In this document: positions 25,614 through 32,629 of the stretch, piece after piece | Numbering within the stretch: position 1 is the first letter of the stretch | Layout: the number at the start of each line of letters is the position of its first letter | Source: Ruminococcus sp. | GTDB lineage: Bacteria > Bacillota > Clostridia > Oscillospirales > Acutalibacteraceae | Direction: 5' to 3' | Assembly: GCA_017416065.1 (NCBI GenBank) | Contig: JAFQDM010000004.1 | Span: 1-39,012, forward strand | DNA length: 39,012 nt | Made by a program: the position numbers and the translations under genes | Notes under the pieces: generated by a model | Databases searched by the model: none | Seen by the model: the letters and a program-made list of their open reading frames with translations, nothing else | Told to the model about the DNA's origin: nothing

Positions 25614-27026
25614 ATGAAAAACGGAATTATAAAAGAAGACGGACAGCTTATCTTTTATAAGGATGACATACCCTTTCACGCAGGAGTTATCAACATAGAC
25701 GGCCATATCTACTACGTGGGTCGTCACGGCAGGGTTGTGACGGGTCAGCACATTGTGCATAAGGAGATGGCCAACGGACTTCTTGAGAGAGGAACTTATA
25801 CCTTTGACGAGCAGGGAAGGCTTATCGAGGATTCCTTTATCCCTGCCAAGCGAGTCAGGTCCTCTCAATCAAGCTCTAAAAGCAAGAAGTCGTCTCACGG
25901 CAGAAGAAGAAAATCAGGCAAGTTCAGACTTACAAAAAAGAAGAAGATCCAGCTTGTTTGCATTGTGGTTGCTGTTGTGATGCTGTTTGGTCTGGCTGTG
26001 CTTATTGATGCAGTCAAATCCGGGCACGGGAGCAGCTCCTCTGCACAGACTCAAAGCACCATCTGTCTGCCTGAGTACAGCGAGCCTGTGGCGCTTTGCA
26101 CCACGGCAGGGCAGAAGCTCTATGCAAACCAGATAACCATGGAAAGCCTCAAGGGAATAGAGGTTTATCAGCCCCTTAGGTTTAGTTACGGCCTGGCAGG
26201 TGAAGACGGCATCTTATCCCTCAGCGAAAATGCGGATATGACAAAGTCAAGAACCTTTATTCTTGCCAAATCCGAGAATGTGCTTGAGCTTCATAATCTT
26301 AAGACAGGCACCACCTACTACTACACGGTTGAGGTTGGTGAGGAGAGGCGTACAGGCAGCTTTAAGACTGCAGAGGGCACAAGGTTTATTCAGATTCCCG
26401 GAGTTGCCAATACCCGCGACATTGGCGGATACACCACCTCTTCAGGCGAAACCGTAAAGCAGGGAATGATAATCCGCGGAACAGAGCTGGACGGCTTGGT
26501 TGAAGCATCCTACTTCCTTTCAGGCAAGGATGTGGAGGCAGTGCAGGAGCAGTTCTCCTTTGTTTACGATATGGACCTGAGGTACCCTTCGGAGGTTACG
26601 GAGGCTAAGGGCTCACGCCTGGGTGCAGATGTAGGCTACAAATGCTACGGAGCGCCTATGTACCTGAGTGCTTTCAACGATTCGTACAAGCAGGCAGTAA
26701 AGAACATCTTCTCTGACCTTGCAAAGGAAGAAAATTATCCCATGTATATGCATTGCACCTACGGTGCTGACCGCACGGGCACTATTGTTTATCTGCTTCA
26801 GGGCTTGCTCGGAATGTCTGAGCAGGATATGGTCAGGGAGTATCAGATGACGGGTATGCACGCACGTGAGTACGCAACCTCAACCCGTATGGATGCCATG
26901 GCAGAGAAGCTCTCTGAATTTCCGGGGGATACAACGGCTGAGAGGATAGAGCACTTTTTGACAAAGGAGATAGGCATCACAAATGCGCAGATACAGTCCA
27001 TAAGAGATATTCTTCTTGAGGACTGA
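25614..27026 (+). CDS. Membrane-anchored tyrosine phosphatase (PTP, Y_phosphatase3-like)
   Basis: A 470-residue protein. Residues 4-70 hold a short repeat-like region (DGQLIFY, DGHIYYVGRHGRVVTGQ, RGTYTFDEQGRL) resembling cell-wall/choline-binding repeats. Residues 80-111 are Ser/Lys/Arg-rich, then one membrane helix at about 112-132. After the helix come a fibronectin-like segment (155-255) and a phosphatase domain with NTRDIGGY (266-273), DMDLRYPSEV (319-328) and the P-loop HCTYGADRTG with C381 and R387. The positive-inside rule puts the phosphatase outside. Substrate unknown. AAGGGGAAG precedes ATG. Confidence 0.85.
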   Translation: MKNGIIKEDGQLIFYKDDIPFHAGVINIDGHIYYVGRHGRVVTGQHIVHKEMANGLLERGTYTFDEQGRLIEDSFIPAKRVRSSQSSSKSKKSSHGRRRKSGKFRLTKKKKIQLVCIVVAVVMLFGLAVLIDAVKSGHGSSSSAQTQSTICLPEYSEPVALCTTAGQKLYANQITMESLKGIEVYQPLRFSYGLAGEDGILSLSENADMTKSRTFILAKSENVLELHNLKTGTTYYYTVEVGEERRTGSFKTAEGTRFIQIPGVANTRDIGGYTTSSGETVKQGMIIRGTELDGLVEASYFLSGKDVEAVQEQFSFVYDMDLRYPSEVTEAKGSRLGADVGYKCYGAPMYLSAFNDSYKQAVKNIFSDLAKEENYPMYMHCTYGADRTGTIVYLLQGLLGMSEQDMVREYQMTGMHAREYATSTRMDAMAEKLSEFPGDTTAERIEHFLTKEIGITNAQIQSIRDILLED

Positions 27027-27051
27027 GCCCCATAGATAGTGTGAATATAAG

Positions 27052-27081
27052 AAAACGGAGTGATCTTCACTCCGTTTTTTT
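27052..27081 (+). terminator. Terminator after the phosphatase gene
   Basis: Arms AAAACGGAGTGA and TCACTCCGTTTT with a 3-base loop and a long T run. Confidence 0.93.
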
Positions 27082-27104
27082 GTGTGCCGATGTGCCTTAT
27101 GGGC

Positions 27105-27139
27105 AGGGCTTTTGTGAGAACAGCCATCGTAGGGGCAGG
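27105..27139. repeat. 35-bp direct repeat, left copy
   Basis: The 35 bases from AGGGCTTTTGTGAGAAC to GGGGCAGG are identical to 27337-27371. The right end runs into a GGGGCAGG/CCTGCCC hairpin. The copies bracket about 197 bases of palindromic elements. Confidence 0.9.
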
Positions 27140-27201
27140 TCTCTGTGCCTGCCCGTTACACTTCCCATATGCAAACCCTTTCGGCGACAGAGGAAGTAAG
27201 A

Positions 27202-27249
27202 GTCCCCCTTGCCTAAAGGGGGAAGGATTGCGGAGCAATTCAGGGGGAT
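27202..27249. repeat. Small palindromic intergenic element (CCCCCTT type)
   Basis: A compact element with stem TCCCCCTT/AAAGGGGGA, then GATTGC-GGA-GCAATTC, then a second GGGGGAT end. This look is common for short, scattered repeats in gut Firmicutes intergenic DNA. It has no coding capacity. Confidence 0.7.
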
Positions 27250-27286
27250 ATGTAATTGAGGTAAGAAGTAATAGGTAAGCAGCAGA

Positions 27287-27340
27287 CAATCCTCCCGTCA
27301 AAACCCGACGGTTTTGCCACCCTCCTTTACACAAGGAGGG
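27287..27340. repeat. Small palindromic intergenic element (CAATCCTCC type)
   Basis: Starts CAATCCTCCCGTC, contains the hairpin AAAACCCGACGGTTTT, and ends in the hairpin CCCTCCTTTACACAAGGAGGG (given as arms CCCTCCTT and AAGGAGGG). It abuts the right 35-bp repeat. It resembles another family of dispersed short repeats in Clostridia. Confidence 0.65.
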
Positions 27341-27371
27341 CTTTTGTGAGAACAGCCATCGTAGGGGCAGG
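27337..27371. repeat. 35-bp direct repeat, right copy
   Basis: Identical over 35 bases to 27105-27139, same orientation. Beyond it the sequences differ. Confidence 0.9.
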
Positions 27372-27435
27372 GCCCCTGCAATTTGCTGCTGTGGGTATCA
27401 GCGTTGGTGGTGTGCCTTGCTCAGATAAAACTTAA

Positions 27436-27537
27436 AAGGACAAAGCGGTCGGCAGAGGTGCCGACCGCTTTGCTTCAAGGGGGGTCTTTATGTGGGAATG
27501 TTGTGGGGCAGATTAAGCTGAAGGGTTTCCCCTTTCA
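27436..27537 (-). ncRNA. Candidate ECF-controlled small RNA
   Basis: The interval is bounded by a perfect match to the local ECF promoter motif (27542-27571) and a strong terminator hairpin (27442-27471), both on the - strand, predicting an RNA of about 100 nt. It overlaps the 3'UTR of the sigma operon. A 16-codon frame (MKGETLQLNLPHNIPT, 27488-27538) begins at the predicted start point but has no Shine-Dalgarno. So either a noncoding RNA or a leaderless micropeptide is possible. Entirely inferred from promoter-terminator geometry. Confidence 0.5.
27442..27471 (-). terminator. Terminator of the ECF operon and of the candidate small RNA
   Basis: A perfect 13-pair hairpin, arms AAAGCGGTCGGCA and TGCCGACCGCTTT. 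On the - strand it is followed by GTCCTTTTAAG, a moderate T run. It lies 110 bases beyond the stop of the LRR-dockerin gene. Confidence 0.8.
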
Positions 27538-27541
27538 TAAA

Positions 27542-27571
27542 TAATACAATTGACCTGTGCAAAACATCACA
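27542..27571 (-). promoter_or_regulatory. ECF promoter motif, site C
   Basis: TGTGATGTTTT, 10 bases, ATTGTATTA on the - strand: identical in both boxes and spacing to sites A and B. It lies 10 bases after the stop of the LRR-dockerin gene and points away from it. Confidence 0.75.
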
Positions 27572-27581
27572 AAAATTTTAA

Positions 27582-28985
27582 TTATATTTTCACCAGACCT
27601 GCAATAGATTTCTGCACGGCGGTTGCATCCTTAACGTTTACCTTGCCGTCTGTGTTCACGTCTGCATTTTTGTAGATGAATACGCTCTGAGAGATTCCTG
27701 CGCAGTATTTCTGGATGGCTGTGGCGTCTTTGACGTTGACCGCGTTATCATCGTTCACGTCTCCCTGTGTGCGCACATTCCACGCAAGCTCCAGAAGCTC
27801 CTTCTTGTTGTTTGCAATTGCATCTCGGGCGCTGAGGGCACATTCGTCCTCGTACAAAAGGAAGCCTTGGGCATCGCCTATGTAAAAGCCGTAGCTTGTA
27901 ACAAAGCTGTCGTCGGTGATGATCTCGTCAGAGGTTGCCGAATCAGGGATGGTAGGGGGCTCTGTAGAGTCAACGGTGGGCGCTATGGTTGGTGATTCGG
28001 TGGGCGCCTGGGTTACGGGAGCCTGGGTTTCGGGAGCTTCGGTTATAGGCTCTGTGCAGACTGTGGGTGCTATGGTGAAATCAGGTGTGGGCTCAAAGGG
28101 AGCCTGGGGCGTTGTGTACTGGGGAGTATCATTGCTTGTTCCTACGGTGGTCTCCTCTGTGGGGTCGGTTTGAGTGTAGCCGGGAGCAGTGGGGGTAACG
28201 GGCACTGTAGGGAGCTTGTTGCTGTTCCACTCATCAGGGAACTGAACACCGCTTCCCTTAAAGGCATCCTTCATAACATAGGTGCGAAGGCCCGCATCAG
28301 AGGTACTGCTGATGCTTGTAAGGTCTCGGCATTGGGCGAATGCCATATCTCCTATGTAATTAAGATAGTTTGTGAATTCCAGGGAGGTGAGTCCGCTTCC
28401 GTAGAATGCATAGGAGTCAACCTGGCTTACGTGTTCGGGAAAATCTATGCTCTTAAGGCTTGTGCAGTAGGCAAACATACCCTCCTTAATAACCTGTGCA
28501 TCAGAGGGCAGAATTACGTCGGAAAGGGAAGTGCAGCCGTAGAACATATAGTCCCCAAGCTTTGCCTTGGGAGGTATAAGCACGCTCCTGAGGCTTTTGC
28601 AGTATCTGAAGGCGCCCGTGCCTGCGTATTTAAGGGTAGAGGGGAGCCGAAGGGTCTCCAGAGCGCAGTTGTAGAAGGCTTCTGAACCTATGAAGGTGAT
28701 GCCTTCTGAAACGGTAACGTCCTTGACCTGCGTTTCGTAGAATGCGTGGGAGCCTATCTCCTTGACGGGTATGCCGTCAATGCTTGCAGGCACCTGAATG
28801 ATGTCGTCTTCTCCTGTGTAGAAGAGGATGGTGATGGTGTTGTTGTCGAGCACCTCGTAGATATATTCATCGTTCTGATATAATTGTCTTTCGTCTGTCT
28901 GCTGCGGAGCTGCATAGGCTGTAGAGCTTGCAAGCATCAATACTGCCAATGCAATGCACACCCATTTTTTGATACTGTTCCTCAT
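27582..28985 (-). CDS. Secreted BspA-type leucine-rich-repeat protein with C-terminal dockerin
   Basis: A 467-residue secreted protein. Residues 1-25 are a signal peptide (VCIALAVLMLASSTAYA). Residues about 45-245 hold BspA/LRR_5-type repeats with the pattern I-x-x-x-AF-x-x-C-x-x-L-x-x-V-x-L-P (for example GSEAFYNCALETLRLPSTLK). Residues 258-348 are a Pro/Thr/Glu linker. Residues 408-465 are a type I dockerin: DVNDDNAVNVKDATAIQK and DVNTDGKVNVKDATAVQK are its two calcium-binding repeats. It should dock to a cohesin, none being in this window. It is the third gene of the sigma operon, 18 bases after the anti-sigma gene. GGGGGAAAT precedes ATG. Confidence 0.9.
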   Translation of the reverse strand: MRNSIKKWVCIALAVLMLASSTAYAAPQQTDERQLYQNDEYIYEVLDNNTITILFYTGEDDIIQVPASIDGIPVKEIGSHAFYETQVKDVTVSEGITFIGSEAFYNCALETLRLPSTLKYAGTGAFRYCKSLRSVLIPPKAKLGDYMFYGCTSLSDVILPSDAQVIKEGMFAYCTSLKSIDFPEHVSQVDSYAFYGSGLTSLEFTNYLNYIGDMAFAQCRDLTSISSTSDAGLRTYVMKDAFKGSGVQFPDEWNSNKLPTVPVTPTAPGYTQTDPTEETTVGTSNDTPQYTTPQAPFEPTPDFTIAPTVCTEPITEAPETQAPVTQAPTESPTIAPTVDSTEPPTIPDSATSDEIITDDSFVTSYGFYIGDAQGFLLYEDECALSARDAIANNKKELLELAWNVRTQGDVNDDNAVNVKDATAIQKYCAGISQSVFIYKNADVNTDGKVNVKDATAVQKSIAGLVKI

Positions 28986-29003
28986 AACATTTCCCCCGTG
29001 GAT

Positions 29004-29945
29004 TTAGTTTATATCTGTCATGGCGCTGACAGAATAGGTTGTGTCTGTAACCCTGAGTTCCCCATTTTCTATCTCAAGCACTCTCCATACATTCCCCTTT
29101 GAGAGTGCATCAATGCTGTATTCGCCCACAAGTGAGCTGCCCTTGTAGAGGGTGAGGGTGGCACCTGACTGAGCAAGAGGCAGGCTGTTTTCGTCCTTGA
29201 GGGAGGAGTAGGAGCCGACGCTCAGGCGCCACACACCTTGGCAGTCGCCTCTGAAGGTTACCGTTTCGGGAGAGTGGGGTGCAGAGCTGTCTGTGTCCAA
29301 AGCCGCAAGCACCTCTCCCTGCGCATTCAAAATATCGCTTTTAAAGTAGTGGAGCTTTTCTGTTTTGTCTTCGGTTGTCAGGGTAAGGAAGGCGTCAAGG
29401 TCGCAATCCTCGGTCCAGGTAAGCACCGCGCGGTAGGTGTCCTCTGTCATCTTTGGGCATACATATATGTTTTCTGAGGCATTTCCCACAAAGGGGATAA
29501 AGCCCTCGGCGGTAACCTCTATCTGCAAAGCCTCCTCTTGGGGAAGCTTTGCCGTAACCCGTCCTTTTTCGTCTGTATAGGCTGTGAGGGTGTTGCCGTT
29601 TTCGTCCTTCAGGTACTCACCCTCGGAATTCAGGAAGCTTACCTTTGCGCCTCCTACCTGTGCAAGGTTTGTGGCAGAGGAGATCCTGAAGTGCATATCC
29701 TTGGTGACTGCAGGCGGTGAGCTTCTCAGCACAGAGAACAAAAGCAGTGCGCAGGCAACTATCGCTACAGCCGCGGCGGCAGAAAGGGCGGCTCTTTGAA
29801 GGAGGACAAGCCCGGGCTTTTTCTTTGGTGCATCCTCAAGGCTCAGATTGGAGAGGATATGGTCTTTGAAGTTTTCGGGAAGCTGTACGCTGTTCACGGA
29901 CTTTTTGTAAGCATCAGAAAATCTGTTGTCAGTCAAAGTAATCAT
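29004..29945 (-). CDS. Probable transmembrane anti-sigma factor with extracellular sensor domain
   Basis: A 313-residue protein. Residues 1-50 are cytosolic and probably bind the sigma factor (DAYKKSVNSVQLPENFKDHI). Residues 52-73 form one membrane helix. The exported part begins with a carboxypeptidase-regulatory-like beta domain (about 84-155, with GGAKVSFLNSEGEYL and AYTDEKGRVTAKLP). It continues with a second domain (about 165-250) containing AVLTWTEDCDLDAFLTLTTE, similar to the LTW-x-DLD-x-L pattern of YfaP-like domains. It overlaps the sigma gene by 17 bases, typical of sigma/anti-sigma pairs. No zinc-binding HxxxCxxC motif is seen. Role inferred from context. Confidence 0.75.
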   Translation of the reverse strand: MITLTDNRFSDAYKKSVNSVQLPENFKDHILSNLSLEDAPKKKPGLVLLQRAALSAAAAVAIVACALLLFSVLRSSPPAVTKDMHFRISSATNLAQVGGAKVSFLNSEGEYLKDENGNTLTAYTDEKGRVTAKLPQEEALQIEVTAEGFIPFVGNASENIYVCPKMTEDTYRAVLTWTEDCDLDAFLTLTTEDKTEKLHYFKSDILNAQGEVLAALDTDSSAPHSPETVTFRGDCQGVWRLSVGSYSSLKDENSLPLAQSGATLTLYKGSSLVGEYSIDALSKGNVWRVLEIENGELRVTDTTYSVSAMTDIN

Positions 29946-30405
29946 CTCCTATCTTTTCTTTCAGTAATTTTCGTCCCCGCTGAAGTCGGGTAGACACCGC
30001 TGACTCGGTGATGCCAAGAGCTTTTGCGATCTGCTTCTGGGTGTAATCCTCGTAATAAAAAAGGTGGATAACTATTCTGTATTTTTCGGGCAGGGAGTTT
30101 ACTATCTCTGCAAGGCCCGAGGAGTAGGTGTCGCAAACACTCATATTTTCGTCAAGCTCTGCGTAGTTTCTGCGGTAGGCAGAGCTCAGGTGATTCTTGC
30201 ATATATTGATGGTAACACGAATGAGCCAGGCTTTTTCGTGTTCATCCGATGAAAACTGCGGGGCAGAGCTCATATAGCGGAGAAACGCATCCTGGACCAT
30301 ATCCTGAGCATCCTGCATATTCTTTGTGTATGTATAGGCTACTCGCATAAGGCTTTCGCCGTATTTTTCCAGCGCCTGCTCTGCGGCGCGCCTGAGGTCA
30401 GACAA
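29929..30405 (-). CDS. ECF-type RNA polymerase sigma factor
   Basis: A 158-residue sigma-70 family protein of ECF size. Region 2 is at about residues 10-75 (YTYTKNMQDAQDMVQDAFLR, then KAWLIRVTINICKNHL). Region 4 is at about 100-152 (LPEKYRIVIHLFYYEDYTQK, then QIAKALGITESAVSTRLQRG, a helix-turn-helix). The start is TTG at 30405 with GGGGGGAG before it. It is the first gene of an operon with the anti-sigma and LRR-dockerin genes. The operon promoter (site A) carries the same motif as two other local sites, which suggests autoregulation. Confidence 0.93.
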   Translation of the reverse strand: MSDLRRAAEQALEKYGESLMRVAYTYTKNMQDAQDMVQDAFLRYMSSAPQFSSDEHEKAWLIRVTINICKNHLSSAYRRNYAELDENMSVCDTYSSGLAEIVNSLPEKYRIVIHLFYYEDYTQKQIAKALGITESAVSTRLQRGRKLLKEKIGDDYFD

Positions 30406-30428
30406 GCTTCTCCCCCCCTTTACATCTT

Positions 30429-30458
30429 TAATACAATTGTGAAGACCAAAACATCACA
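30429..30458 (-). promoter_or_regulatory. ECF promoter motif, site A (sigma operon)
   Basis: TGTGATGTTTT, 10 bases, ATTGTATTA on the - strand, ending about 24 bases before the TTG start of the sigma gene. AT-rich sequence upstream could act as an UP element. Confidence 0.8.
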
Positions 30459-30544
30459 ATAATTTGCAAAAATATATTTTATACGATTTATATTACCACA
30501 GAGTCCTTTGCTCTTCAATAAAATGCAAAAAATTCAGAATGTTT

Positions 30545-30574
30545 TGTGATGTTTTTAGTTTGTGGATTGTATTA
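30545..30574 (+). promoter_or_regulatory. ECF promoter motif, site B (divergent dockerin gene)
   Basis: TGTGATGTTTT, 10 bases, ATTGTATTA on the + strand, 51 bases before the ATG at 30626. It is divergent from site A. The leader contains a 6-codon ATG...TAA frame (30590-30610) after GAGAGG, which could be incidental. Confidence 0.8.
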
Positions 30575-30625
30575 GGTTCAGAGAGGAAAATGAATCCCTC
30601 AAAACAATAAAAAGGAGTTGTTTTT

Positions 30626-32203
30626 ATGAACCGAAAGAGATTTTTGTCTGCAATACTTGCAATGCTTATACTGCTGTCAGTTGCCGTGCCCTCGGCTATG
30701 GCGGCTGAGCAGTACGGTGAGCTTTACGTTGCCGTGGGTAACGTAACGGATGACGGCAGGGTGAACGTTAAGGATGCCACAGCCGTGCAAAAGCATCTGG
30801 CAGGAATCATCACTCTGACAGGAGCACAGCTTCTGGCCGCCGACACAAACGGCGACGGAACAGTTAACATCAAGGATGCCACCGTGATTCAAAAGCACAT
30901 TGCAGGATTTTCCCAGGTGTCTCAGATAGGGGTGGTCATAACCCTTCCGGAGCCCACTCCCGATGAGGAGACGCCGGAAACAGAGGTGATCCCCACCTGC
31001 ACAGGGTGCGACATCCCCGTGCCTATCCTGCCTGATGTTACTCAGCCTGTGACCACATCCCCTGCAACAACGCCCCAAGACCCCGTAGAGCTTCCCTCTA
31101 CTCCCGATACTGCTCAAGGGGATATATACTTTAACGTTGAGTGCTCTCTGAGAGTGAGCGACTACGAGGGTCGGGATACGGGAGGAACGGTTCTCTACCT
31201 GATAAACGATCTGCAGGAGCTCAAAGACGTGCTTTCAACCATCAAGGTGACAATGTACGGCGACGGCACCTACACAACGCCTGACGTAAGCCCTGAGTAC
31301 TCAGAGGAGTTCTTTAAGGAGTACGCACTTGTTGTTTCCTTAAACTGCGTAGGCGGCAGCAACTGCAGCCAGGAAATAGACAGACTCTCAGTTGAAGGCA
31401 ACGTCCTCACTACTCACAGAACTCTTTATCACCCCTTCATTATGCTTTGCGATATGAACTGGCAGTATGTGCTTGTGAAGGTAAAGGCGGAGGACGTTGA
31501 GAGTGTGGAGCTGCTTGCAGATGATACATATATTGACGAGTGTACTCAGGAGGATCCCACATTGCCTGTCGCCACTCTGCCCACAGACCCTACAGAGCCT
31601 GCGGAAACCATTCCTGCACTTACCACAGAGCCTGAGACCGAGCCTGTTTCCACCCTGCCCACAGAGCCTGAGACCGAGCCTGTTCCCACTCTGTCCACAG
31701 AGCCTGCCGAAACCCAAAAGCCCGTGGATGAAACCACCCCTGTCAAGCCCGGATACATCCCCTTTGACATCATAGAAGAGGGCAGGATCACAGACTACAA
31801 AGGCTCTGACGAAACAAAAGTGTTCTATGCCGATTCAGTAGAAAAGGCGCTGGAGGCATATGCCCAGATAGTGCTTGACCCTTACTATCAGGGCACCTAC
31901 TTCTTAAATCCCACCCTTGACGAAAAGTACAACGAGGAGTACTTTGAGGATAAGGCGCTTATAATCTCTCTCAACTGCGTAGGAGGCAGTAACTGCTACC
32001 AGAGCATTAATAAGCTGACGGTTTGCGACGGTGTGCTCACTCTGCACAGAAATCTGTACAAACCGGTGATAGTTACCTGTGATATGAATTATCAGTACGT
32101 GCTCATAGAGGTAGACAAAGCACACGTGGGCACCGTAACGGGCATGGAAAATCACAACACCTACTATACCATCGAGGAAGAAGGTATTGATGTTCCCTGG
32201 TGA
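30626..32203 (+). CDS. Secreted protein with N-terminal dockerin and duplicated novel domain
   Basis: A 525-residue secreted protein. Residues 1-27 are a signal peptide. A dockerin follows at once (38-95), with the repeats TDDGRVNVKDATAVQKHLAG and DTNGDGTVNIKDATVIQKHI. After a linker come two copies of one domain (about 170-300 and 380-510). Both carry SLNCVGGSNC (238-247, 448-457) and CDMNxQYVL (275-283, 485-493). A Pro/Thr/Glu linker with LPTEPETEPV-type repeats separates them. The fold is unknown to me; the layout is faintly like PrcB C-terminal domains. An N-terminal dockerin is unusual. AAAGGAG precedes ATG. Confidence 0.88.
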   Translation: MNRKRFLSAILAMLILLSVAVPSAMAAEQYGELYVAVGNVTDDGRVNVKDATAVQKHLAGIITLTGAQLLAADTNGDGTVNIKDATVIQKHIAGFSQVSQIGVVITLPEPTPDEETPETEVIPTCTGCDIPVPILPDVTQPVTTSPATTPQDPVELPSTPDTAQGDIYFNVECSLRVSDYEGRDTGGTVLYLINDLQELKDVLSTIKVTMYGDGTYTTPDVSPEYSEEFFKEYALVVSLNCVGGSNCSQEIDRLSVEGNVLTTHRTLYHPFIMLCDMNWQYVLVKVKAEDVESVELLADDTYIDECTQEDPTLPVATLPTDPTEPAETIPALTTEPETEPVSTLPTEPETEPVPTLSTEPAETQKPVDETTPVKPGYIPFDIIEEGRITDYKGSDETKVFYADSVEKALEAYAQIVLDPYYQGTYFLNPTLDEKYNEEYFEDKALIISLNCVGGSNCYQSINKLTVCDGVLTLHRNLYKPVIVTCDMNYQYVLIEVDKAHVGTVTGMENHNTYYTIEEEGIDVPW

Positions 32204-32262
32204 ATCCGAGGCAAAGCAAGGGGACTGTGAATGCTGACACCTGATAAGGAAATGATTCTATA

Positions 32263-32299
32263 AACAAGAGGAATTTGCCGTACAAATTCCCTGCTTGTT
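32263..32299 (+). terminator. Hairpin after the dockerin gene
   Basis: Imperfect stem with arms AACAAG-GGAATTT and AAATTCC-CTTGTT around GCCGTAC, lying about 60 bases after the stop. No T run follows, so it may be an mRNA 3' structure rather than a terminator. Confidence 0.4.
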
Positions 32300-32314
32300 A
32301 AGGTATAAGACAAA

Positions 32315-32361
32315 ACCGCCCGATAAGGAACGAAGAATTCCTTTTCGGGTGGTATCTTTTT
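32315..32361 (+). terminator. Terminator of the dockerin gene
   Basis: Long hairpin of about 15 pairs with arms ACCGCCCGATAAGGAA and TTCCTTTTCGGGTGGT (one T-T mismatch, one G-T), followed by ATCTTTTTG. Confidence 0.85.
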
Positions 32362-32366
32362 GTGCA

Positions 32367-32538
32367 GTTTCAAACCTGAGGTTTGAAGTGAAGTTGTCAT
32401 AAATGACAGTGAAGTTTTTGCTTTTTGGGCAAAAGTGAAGTTAAGTTTGCCTCAAAACACTTGCGAAGCAAACTTCACTACAAAGTAACTTCACTGCGTG
32501 CTCGCAACTTCACTTGCCCTTACGGGCAAACTTAGTTT
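32367..32538. repeat. Hairpin array B with inverted AAGTGAAGTT linkers
   Basis: Linker AAGTGAAGTT occurs at 32386, 32408 (as AGTGAAGTT) and 32433. Its reverse complement AACTTCACTT occurs at 32471, 32487 and 32506. Between them stand hairpins CAAACC/GGTTTG, GTCAT/ATGAC, TTTGC/GCAAA, an apical AAGTTTGC/GCAAACTT region, TAC/GTA, GCG/CGC and GCCC/GGGC. The three forward and three inverted linkers can pair in nested order. No open frame crosses it. The design equals array A at 11194 although the linker word differs. Confidence 0.85.
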
Positions 32539-32590
32539 CGGCACAGCGCGATGCATTGCTTAGAATACTGCCTTATGTGGCTGTGCCGAA
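32537..32590. repeat. Inverted repeat TTCGGCACAGC/GCTGTGCCGAA
   Basis: Eleven-base perfect arms separated by 32 bases, abutting array B. It could be an end of the array unit or a structure of its own. No T run, so not an obvious terminator. Confidence 0.6.
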
Positions 32591-32629
32591 TGAAACCTCT
32601 GTTGATCGTAATTAAAGCTTCGCATAAAA

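Follow-up and report, generated by a model that had tools for sequence, protein, structure and literature searches.

The sigma-I/RsgI pairs of Clostridium thermocellum and its relatives control cellulosomal (dockerin, cohesin) genes through stringent promoters, and they are defined by a sigma-I C-terminal domain in place of region 4 and by an A-tract in the −35 element, according to passages of PMC6056542; in part of PMC10766802 the C. thermocellum systems are loosely counted as extracytoplasmic function (ECF) systems. The locus described here, an ECF sigma factor operon in a 39,012-nucleotide stretch of a Ruminococcus sp. genome (contig JAFQDM010000004.1; the window), resembles them in that an autoregulated alternative sigma factor and a membrane anti-sigma factor with an extracellular sensor, here putative, would control dockerin genes. 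Unlike sigma-I, the window sigma factor is an ECF factor proper, region 4 included, and a T-tract, not an A-tract, lies in the −35 element. Moreover, the sensor differs from that of RsgI, being a predicted pair of a TerD-like and a transthyretin-like domain. Because region 4 is present and the T-tract replaces the A-tract, the system falls outside the sigma-I/RsgI family, to which it is analogous. The Pfam matches of the nine anti-sigma orthologues at E ≤0.1 include no RsgI-named family, which is an absence of match only. The regulon is new and well supported, and it suggests separate recruitment of ECF/anti-sigma pairs and of sigma-I/RsgI to dockerin control.

The amylosome of Ruminococcus bromii, with its dockerin, cohesin, and CBM26 proteins (parts of PMC9112005 and PMC5814915), is also similar, and its Doc1 is a leucine-rich repeat (LRR) protein of LRR-LRR-Doc type (PMC9112005, in part), like the product of the third gene of the window operon. 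Passages of PMC9112005, from 2022, report little evidence for differential regulation of amylosome genes, and, unlike the present case, no sigma control of the amylosome is mentioned in the passages of PMC9112005 and PMC5814915. Among the titles listed in our literature search, none concerned an ECF factor controlling Ruminococcus dockerin genes or sigma control of the amylosome. With one sigma factor, its promoter sequence, and a few target genes defined, the control of cohesin-dockerin starch machines in gut bacteria becomes directly testable. Profile comparison places Bacillus SigW and SigV among the nearest of the named models and of the solved structures, but the scores are far under those equivalog cutoffs (among the best 25 of 115 families) and the targets differ. 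The −10 element of Bacillus SigW/SigV-type promoters differs from the TTGTATTA of the window sites.

Motif sites in the window and its genome

An earlier note on this DNA had described an ECF promoter motif, identical at three sites, as defining a local autoregulated regulon of dockerin proteins. The pattern TGTGATGTTTT-N10-ATTGTATTA is indeed exact at all three coordinates, with no match in 100 dinucleotide shuffles of the window. The sites, the neighboring genes, and two further sites elsewhere in the genome are as follows.

30429..30458, minus strand: site 1, exact motif; predicted ECF promoter of the sigma/anti-sigma/LRR-dockerin operon (autoregulatory)
30545..30574, plus strand: site 2, exact motif; predicted ECF promoter of the divergent dockerin gene
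27542..27571, minus strand: site 3, exact motif; orphan ECF-type site
Contig C22, 31870-31899, minus strand: 2 mismatches; upstream of a secreted dockerin-type gene, on the coding strand
Contig C32, 12732-12761, minus strand: 2 mismatches; upstream of a secreted dockerin-type gene, on the coding strand
29929..30405, minus strand: ECF sigma factor, 158 amino acids, regions 2 and 4 only (Pfam Sigma70_r2, Sigma70_r4_2)
29004..29945, minus strand: putative membrane anti-sigma factor, 313 amino acids (alignment, structure model, structure matches)
27582..28985, minus strand: secreted BspA-type LRR protein with a C-terminal dockerin, 467 amino acids (Pfam LRR_5, Dockerin_1)
30626..32203, plus strand: D gene, secreted dockerin protein of 525 amino acids in which an unnamed repeat domain occurs twice (Pfam Dockerin_1, repeat alignment)
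27440..27473, minus strand: intrinsic terminator after the operon, 15-pair stem (fold of the predicted RNA)

Site 1 lies 23 nucleotides (nt) ahead of the TTG start of the sigma gene, and site 2 lies 51 nt ahead of the ATG of the divergent D gene. The motif is not frequent at random in the genome of the window (G000; 1,864,962 bases, 36 contigs, 84.8% complete), where exact copies occur only at the same three places and the reversed pattern, used as the genome control, yields none. At ≤3 mismatches there are five sites (control, 0), and both additional ones, at 2 mismatches each, precede dockerin-type genes, which supports the autoregulated dockerin regulon that the earlier note had proposed to examine by such a genome search. 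The C32 target has 365 amino acids and a dockerin of 23.3 bits (cutoff, 22.9), with its site 80 nt ahead of the start. The C22 target has 430 to 440 amino acids, with its site 27 or 57 nt ahead of the start depending on the codon, and its dockerin scores 17.5 bits, under the cutoff, with two repeats visible by eye. By chance, an extra site would precede a dockerin gene in ∼0.2% of cases, or roughly 4e-6 for two of two, if ∼50 dockerin genes are each allowed a 150-bp upstream region and a single strand; the figure is rough, since neither the C22 nor the C32 gene is among the rows of the 50-hit dockerin count and dockerin-like genes are thus more numerous than counted. The regulon is not only "local," as the note had called it, with two distant sites in G000 and more in relatives.

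Ordinary ECF logic, positive feedback together with a small dedicated regulon, explains these observations, and we assign a probability of about 0.85 to the reading that the ECF sigma factor reads the motif and thereby activates its own operon and a few genes for secreted dockerin proteins. Motif, site positions, sigma orthology, the co-occurrence of motif and sigma, and the nature of the targets are read from the sequences themselves, while sigma binding, anti-sigma function, signal, and release are steps that we infer. The 158-amino-acid sigma factor would recognize TGWGAtRTTTT-N10-wTTGTATTA, in which a −35 TGTGAT is followed by the T-tract and the −10 is TTGTATTA, and would activate its own operon of sigma factor, membrane anti-sigma factor, and LRR-dockerin protein, as well as the divergent gene and the genes on C22 and C32. 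Presumably, the anti-sigma factor would hold the sigma factor at the membrane until the extracellular TerD-like and transthyretin-like domains receive a signal; the freed sigma factor would then amplify itself and supply the cell surface with dockerin proteins, which dock onto cohesin scaffolds. The sigma dependence of the sites is a prediction throughout, and gene order is that of the assembled contigs.

It is hardly credible that the three sites merely reflect a recent local duplication without regulatory meaning. Identical boxes do occur within ∼3 kb, but their interiors and flanks differ, distant sites exist on other contigs, and the corresponding sites of relatives vary both in their flanks, which have diverged, and in their box variants.

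The motif across the genus and the family

Sigma orthologues (60 to 75% identity) were found in 9 of the 161 genomes of the genus set (G000, G020, G028, G045, G073, G077, G088, G106, and G121), the next full-length matches being at 43 to 45%. A first sample of 100 genomes had provided six relatives with the orthologue, all with the motif directly upstream of sigma at 1 to 4 mismatches; from these the pattern was refined to TGWGAKRTTTTN10WTTGTATTA and then run on all 161 genomes. At ≤1 mismatch it occurs in 11 of them, namely the nine sigma genomes plus G033 and G144, with one intragenic match each (reversed control, 1 hit). The motif thus tracks the sigma orthologue (9/9 versus 2/152 genomes; Fisher P = 3e-13), and G106 and G121, left out of the refinement, both match on their own (P = 5e-4); these P values are optimistic owing to the relatedness of the genomes. 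In the family set (398 genomes, 6 of the genus), the 392 genomes from outside the genus gave three matches, equal to the reversed control (3), two being intragenic and one over the end of a gene, and none precedes a sigma or dockerin gene. The eight relatives are metagenome-assembled genomes (Oscillospiraceae, Ruminococcus, or Clostridia); for four of them the record mentions a site in the ruminant gut (rectum of sheep and of roe deer, colon and caecum of goat), and for the other four it mentions none. The bacterium of the window is probably from the ruminant gut.

The position of site 1 is occupied in all nine sigma genomes, and the motif stands at the own promoter of 10/10 sigma gene copies, G028 holding two copies, one of them cut by a contig end. 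The second G028 copy (L090, C39, 4690-4993) has its own site at the contig end; G028 could contain two systems, or its bin could be mixed.

The orthology of the sigma factor and its co-occurrence with the motif also bear on whether the motif is read by some other ECF factor encoded in the genome, with the neighboring sigma gene merely another target. ECF-like matches to the sigma factor do exist in 98 of 100 sampled genus genomes, G000 itself having five, and ECF cross-talk is known (part of PMC6056542). However, the motif is missing from 150 of the 152 genomes lacking the sigma orthologue, and at 23 paralogue loci (L013-L035) the best matches at spacing 10 have 5 to 6 mismatches; several of these sit ahead of the paralogue, yet their −10 boxes are not that of the motif. 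We consider such a reader very unlikely. At seven of the paralogous genes (L013, L014, L021, L029, L030, L032, and L033), the upstream −35 is similar (TGTRRY...TTTT) and the −10 boxes are different, a likeness seen at 5 to 6 mismatches to the motif, as if the −10 set specificity among paralogous ECF promoters. A dockerin-like gene stands beside a paralogous ECF gene at 1 of 25 loci (L024, beyond the anti-sigma gene), where the best motif match has 6 mismatches; this check covered ∼1.5 kb on each side, open reading frames of ≥90 amino acids, and dockerins recognized by a simple pattern.

The anatomy of the sites was compared in a collection of 30 (17 before dockerin or cohesin genes, 10 before sigma, 1 orphan, and 2 unsure). 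These were picked by the motif, which partly builds in the conservation of the boxes, whereas the flanks are unselected. T is found at positions 8 to 11 in 26 to 29 of the 30 sites. The flanks are AT-rich upstream, T stands four bases before TTGTATTA in 26/30, and a shared start region follows 5 to 8 nt past the −10, with a pyrimidine (29/30) and then a purine (30/30). The −35 variant tends to agree within genomes, clearly at position 3 (0.81 of pairs versus 0.46 shuffled; P = 0.0008) and weakly at position 6 (P = 0.03), in a test of 27 sites after two unsure rows and one duplicate were dropped; such sharing is what a common reader, specific to each genome, would predict. A conserved 5′ hairpin after the dockerin-gene promoters was considered and rejected: it is clear in G077 C19, G000 C22, G020 C8 and C49, G028, and G088, is absent in others, and has similar values for 4/10 sigma leaders.

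Two conserved boxes at fixed spacing could also be half-sites of an operator for a classical DNA-binding regulator, with transcription starting at another promoter. However, the one box is neither an inverted nor a direct repeat of the other, and both point to the gene at the 20 gene-linked sites (≤1 mismatch). Only ∼18 to 33 nt separate the end of the motif from the sigma start codon (assigned by eye), so that a further promoter would hardly fit, and a sigma-70 scan of 26900-32600 gives none in 30406-30625 (5 found and 5.5 expected overall). Together with the tracking of the sigma gene by the motif, this makes an operator most improbable.

At ≤1 mismatch, the nine sigma genomes contain 21 sites (reversed control, 0), of which 10 stand upstream of sigma and 10 upstream of dockerin-family genes, the last being the orphan site 3 of the window. 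Among the 10 dockerin-family targets, the Pfam dockerin is above the cutoff in six and below it in two (17.5 and 17.7 bits); one of a pair on G020 C20 was assigned by eye from its repeats and a G028 gene by BLAST similarity. On G020 C20 (L093, 3132-4714), two tandem units of promoter and dockerin gene share the same 30-base site and probably arose by recent duplication within the regulon. Nine sites have exactly 2 mismatches, three of them before dockerin genes (G077 C17, G020 C49, and G045) and two before other secreted G077 proteins, one with CBM26 in the part of the protein that was covered. Off the sigma locus, 7 of 13 sites at ≤2 mismatches precede dockerin-family genes. Of 56 sites with exactly 3 mismatches, 17 were inspected, and 5 precede dockerin or cohesin genes while 12 do not. 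The five targets are, in G077, a CBM26-dockerin protein (C19) and, twice on C11, a FIVAR-dockerin protein and an amylase-CBM26 protein with a subthreshold dockerin (19.5 bits), and, in G020, a dockerin protein (C35; 17.6 bits) and a cohesin-plus-CBM26 protein (C8).

Several observations count against a dockerin regulon read by this sigma factor. All nine sigma genomes belong to one genus, and common descent adds to the co-occurrence. Positions 7 and 22 of the motif show no significant within-genome agreement (P = 0.06 and 0.54). The dockerins are weak in two of the four own targets, those on C22 and C32, and of the 50 above-cutoff dockerin hits in G000 only two, both in the window, are linked to a site at ≤3 mismatches; the regulon is therefore a small subset. 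Four of the nine sites at exactly 2 mismatches precede neither dockerin genes nor secreted proteins, and at ≤3 mismatches the 86 hits exceed the reversed control (31) only about threefold. Finally, G121 shows only the sigma site at ≤2 mismatches, and the dockerin gene after its operon has no site.

The site after the operon

Site 3, which begins 10 nt past the LRR-dockerin stop codon, had been placed by the earlier note in the 3′ untranslated region of the operon. It does lie past the last stop codon, but here it is probably a leftover and not a working gene promoter. In five of eight relatives, the same position precedes a dockerin-family gene, kin of the divergent D gene of the window. The site lies 5 nt past the LRR-dockerin stop in G073 and 107 to 109 nt past it in G045, G028, and G088, in each case followed by a same-direction D-family gene, and in G106 it lies 5 nt past the stop and is followed by a D-family gene, the operon being apparently split over two contig ends. 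No counterpart was found in G077 and G020 at ≤4 mismatches or in G121 at ≤3. The window has kept the site without a following gene, and a search of 26901-27620 for a dockerin-gene remnant, by tblastn with 11 proteins, yielded nothing below E = 0.10. Its D gene lies divergently upstream of sigma, and among the genes compared it is best matched by the G106 D gene (183 bits), followed by those of G073 and G028 (120 bits each). Because the same position precedes a dockerin-family gene in five of eight relatives, site 3 is most likely a promoter left behind by a downstream dockerin gene, and its orphan state is best accounted for by relocation of the gene, or by a gene loss together with a gene gain.

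RNA from site 3 would at most be short, ∼100 nt, ended by the predicted operon terminator. The boxes are letter-perfect despite the missing gene, and the predicted RNA has a small GAAA-loop hairpin at its start (not beyond shuffles; fraction, 0.18) and a strong terminator at its end, as might be expected if the site drove a functional small RNA of ∼100 nt. The genes at this position in the five relatives speak against this, there is no Rfam match at gathering thresholds in 26900-32600, and the similarities of 27040-27600 to the loci compared are short pieces, several being other copies of the promoter. A small RNA is thus unlikely. The spacer left of the operon also contains a 35-base exact direct repeat (27105-27139 and 27337-27371), and short pieces similar to this spacer occur in other loci compared.

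Possible starch-type targets and the proteins of the locus

The G000 genome encodes 50 dockerin hits over the cutoff, 7 cohesin matches (6 over the cutoff), and 48 CBM26 matches, and all nine sigma genomes have cohesins and many CBM26 modules, which is the makeup of an amylosome. Pfam finds no CBM26, amylase, or scaffoldin among the domains of the four own targets, so any link to starch is carried by the relatives: the D genes of four of them (G073, G106, G045, and G028) encode CBM26 modules, G077 has an amylase-dockerin target at 2 mismatches, and G020 has a cohesin-CBM26 target at 3. Dockerins need calcium to fold and to bind cohesins. It is possible, though doubtful, that the system, in Ruminococcus-like bacteria of the ruminant gut, is a dedicated switch for amylosome-type cohesin/dockerin assemblies in which the anti-sigma factor senses the surface by its TerD-like domain, possibly calcium itself.

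The sigma factor scores above the cutoff for TIGR02937 (sigma70-ECF), with Sigma70_r2 at residues 13 to 78 and Sigma70_r4_2 at residues 98 to 148 of 158 (Pfam). The gene of the putative anti-sigma factor overlaps the sigma gene, and its orthologue adjoins sigma in 9/9 genomes. Alignment and model give this protein the layout of an anti-sigma factor, with short N-terminal helices, a predicted membrane helix (residues 50 to 74), and outer beta domains predicted to be transthyretin-like (80 to 165) and TerD-like (167 to 313). By sequence, its search against solved structures returned a single match, at E = 0.16. The TerD match rests on the structure model (mean pLDDT, 77; pTM, 0.59), whose outer domain matches the calcium-binding TerD proteins 2kxt and 3ibz at 12 to 14% identity; unlike in those proteins, the TerD-like fold would here serve as an extracellular domain of a putative anti-sigma factor. 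Partial matches to this protein (29004-29945) occur in Cohnella, Bacillus marasmi, and two metagenome-assembled genomes (L181-L184).

The repeat domain of the D protein (31115-31537 and 31745-32173) spans ∼140 amino acids with a VGGSNC core and is common to several of the dockerin proteins of the predicted regulon; it has no Pfam family, each family with a hit matching at most 1 of 16 members (best E, 0.011). In G077, the LRR-dockerin gene (L085, C6, 3866-6520) encodes 884 amino acids and also has a cohesin match.

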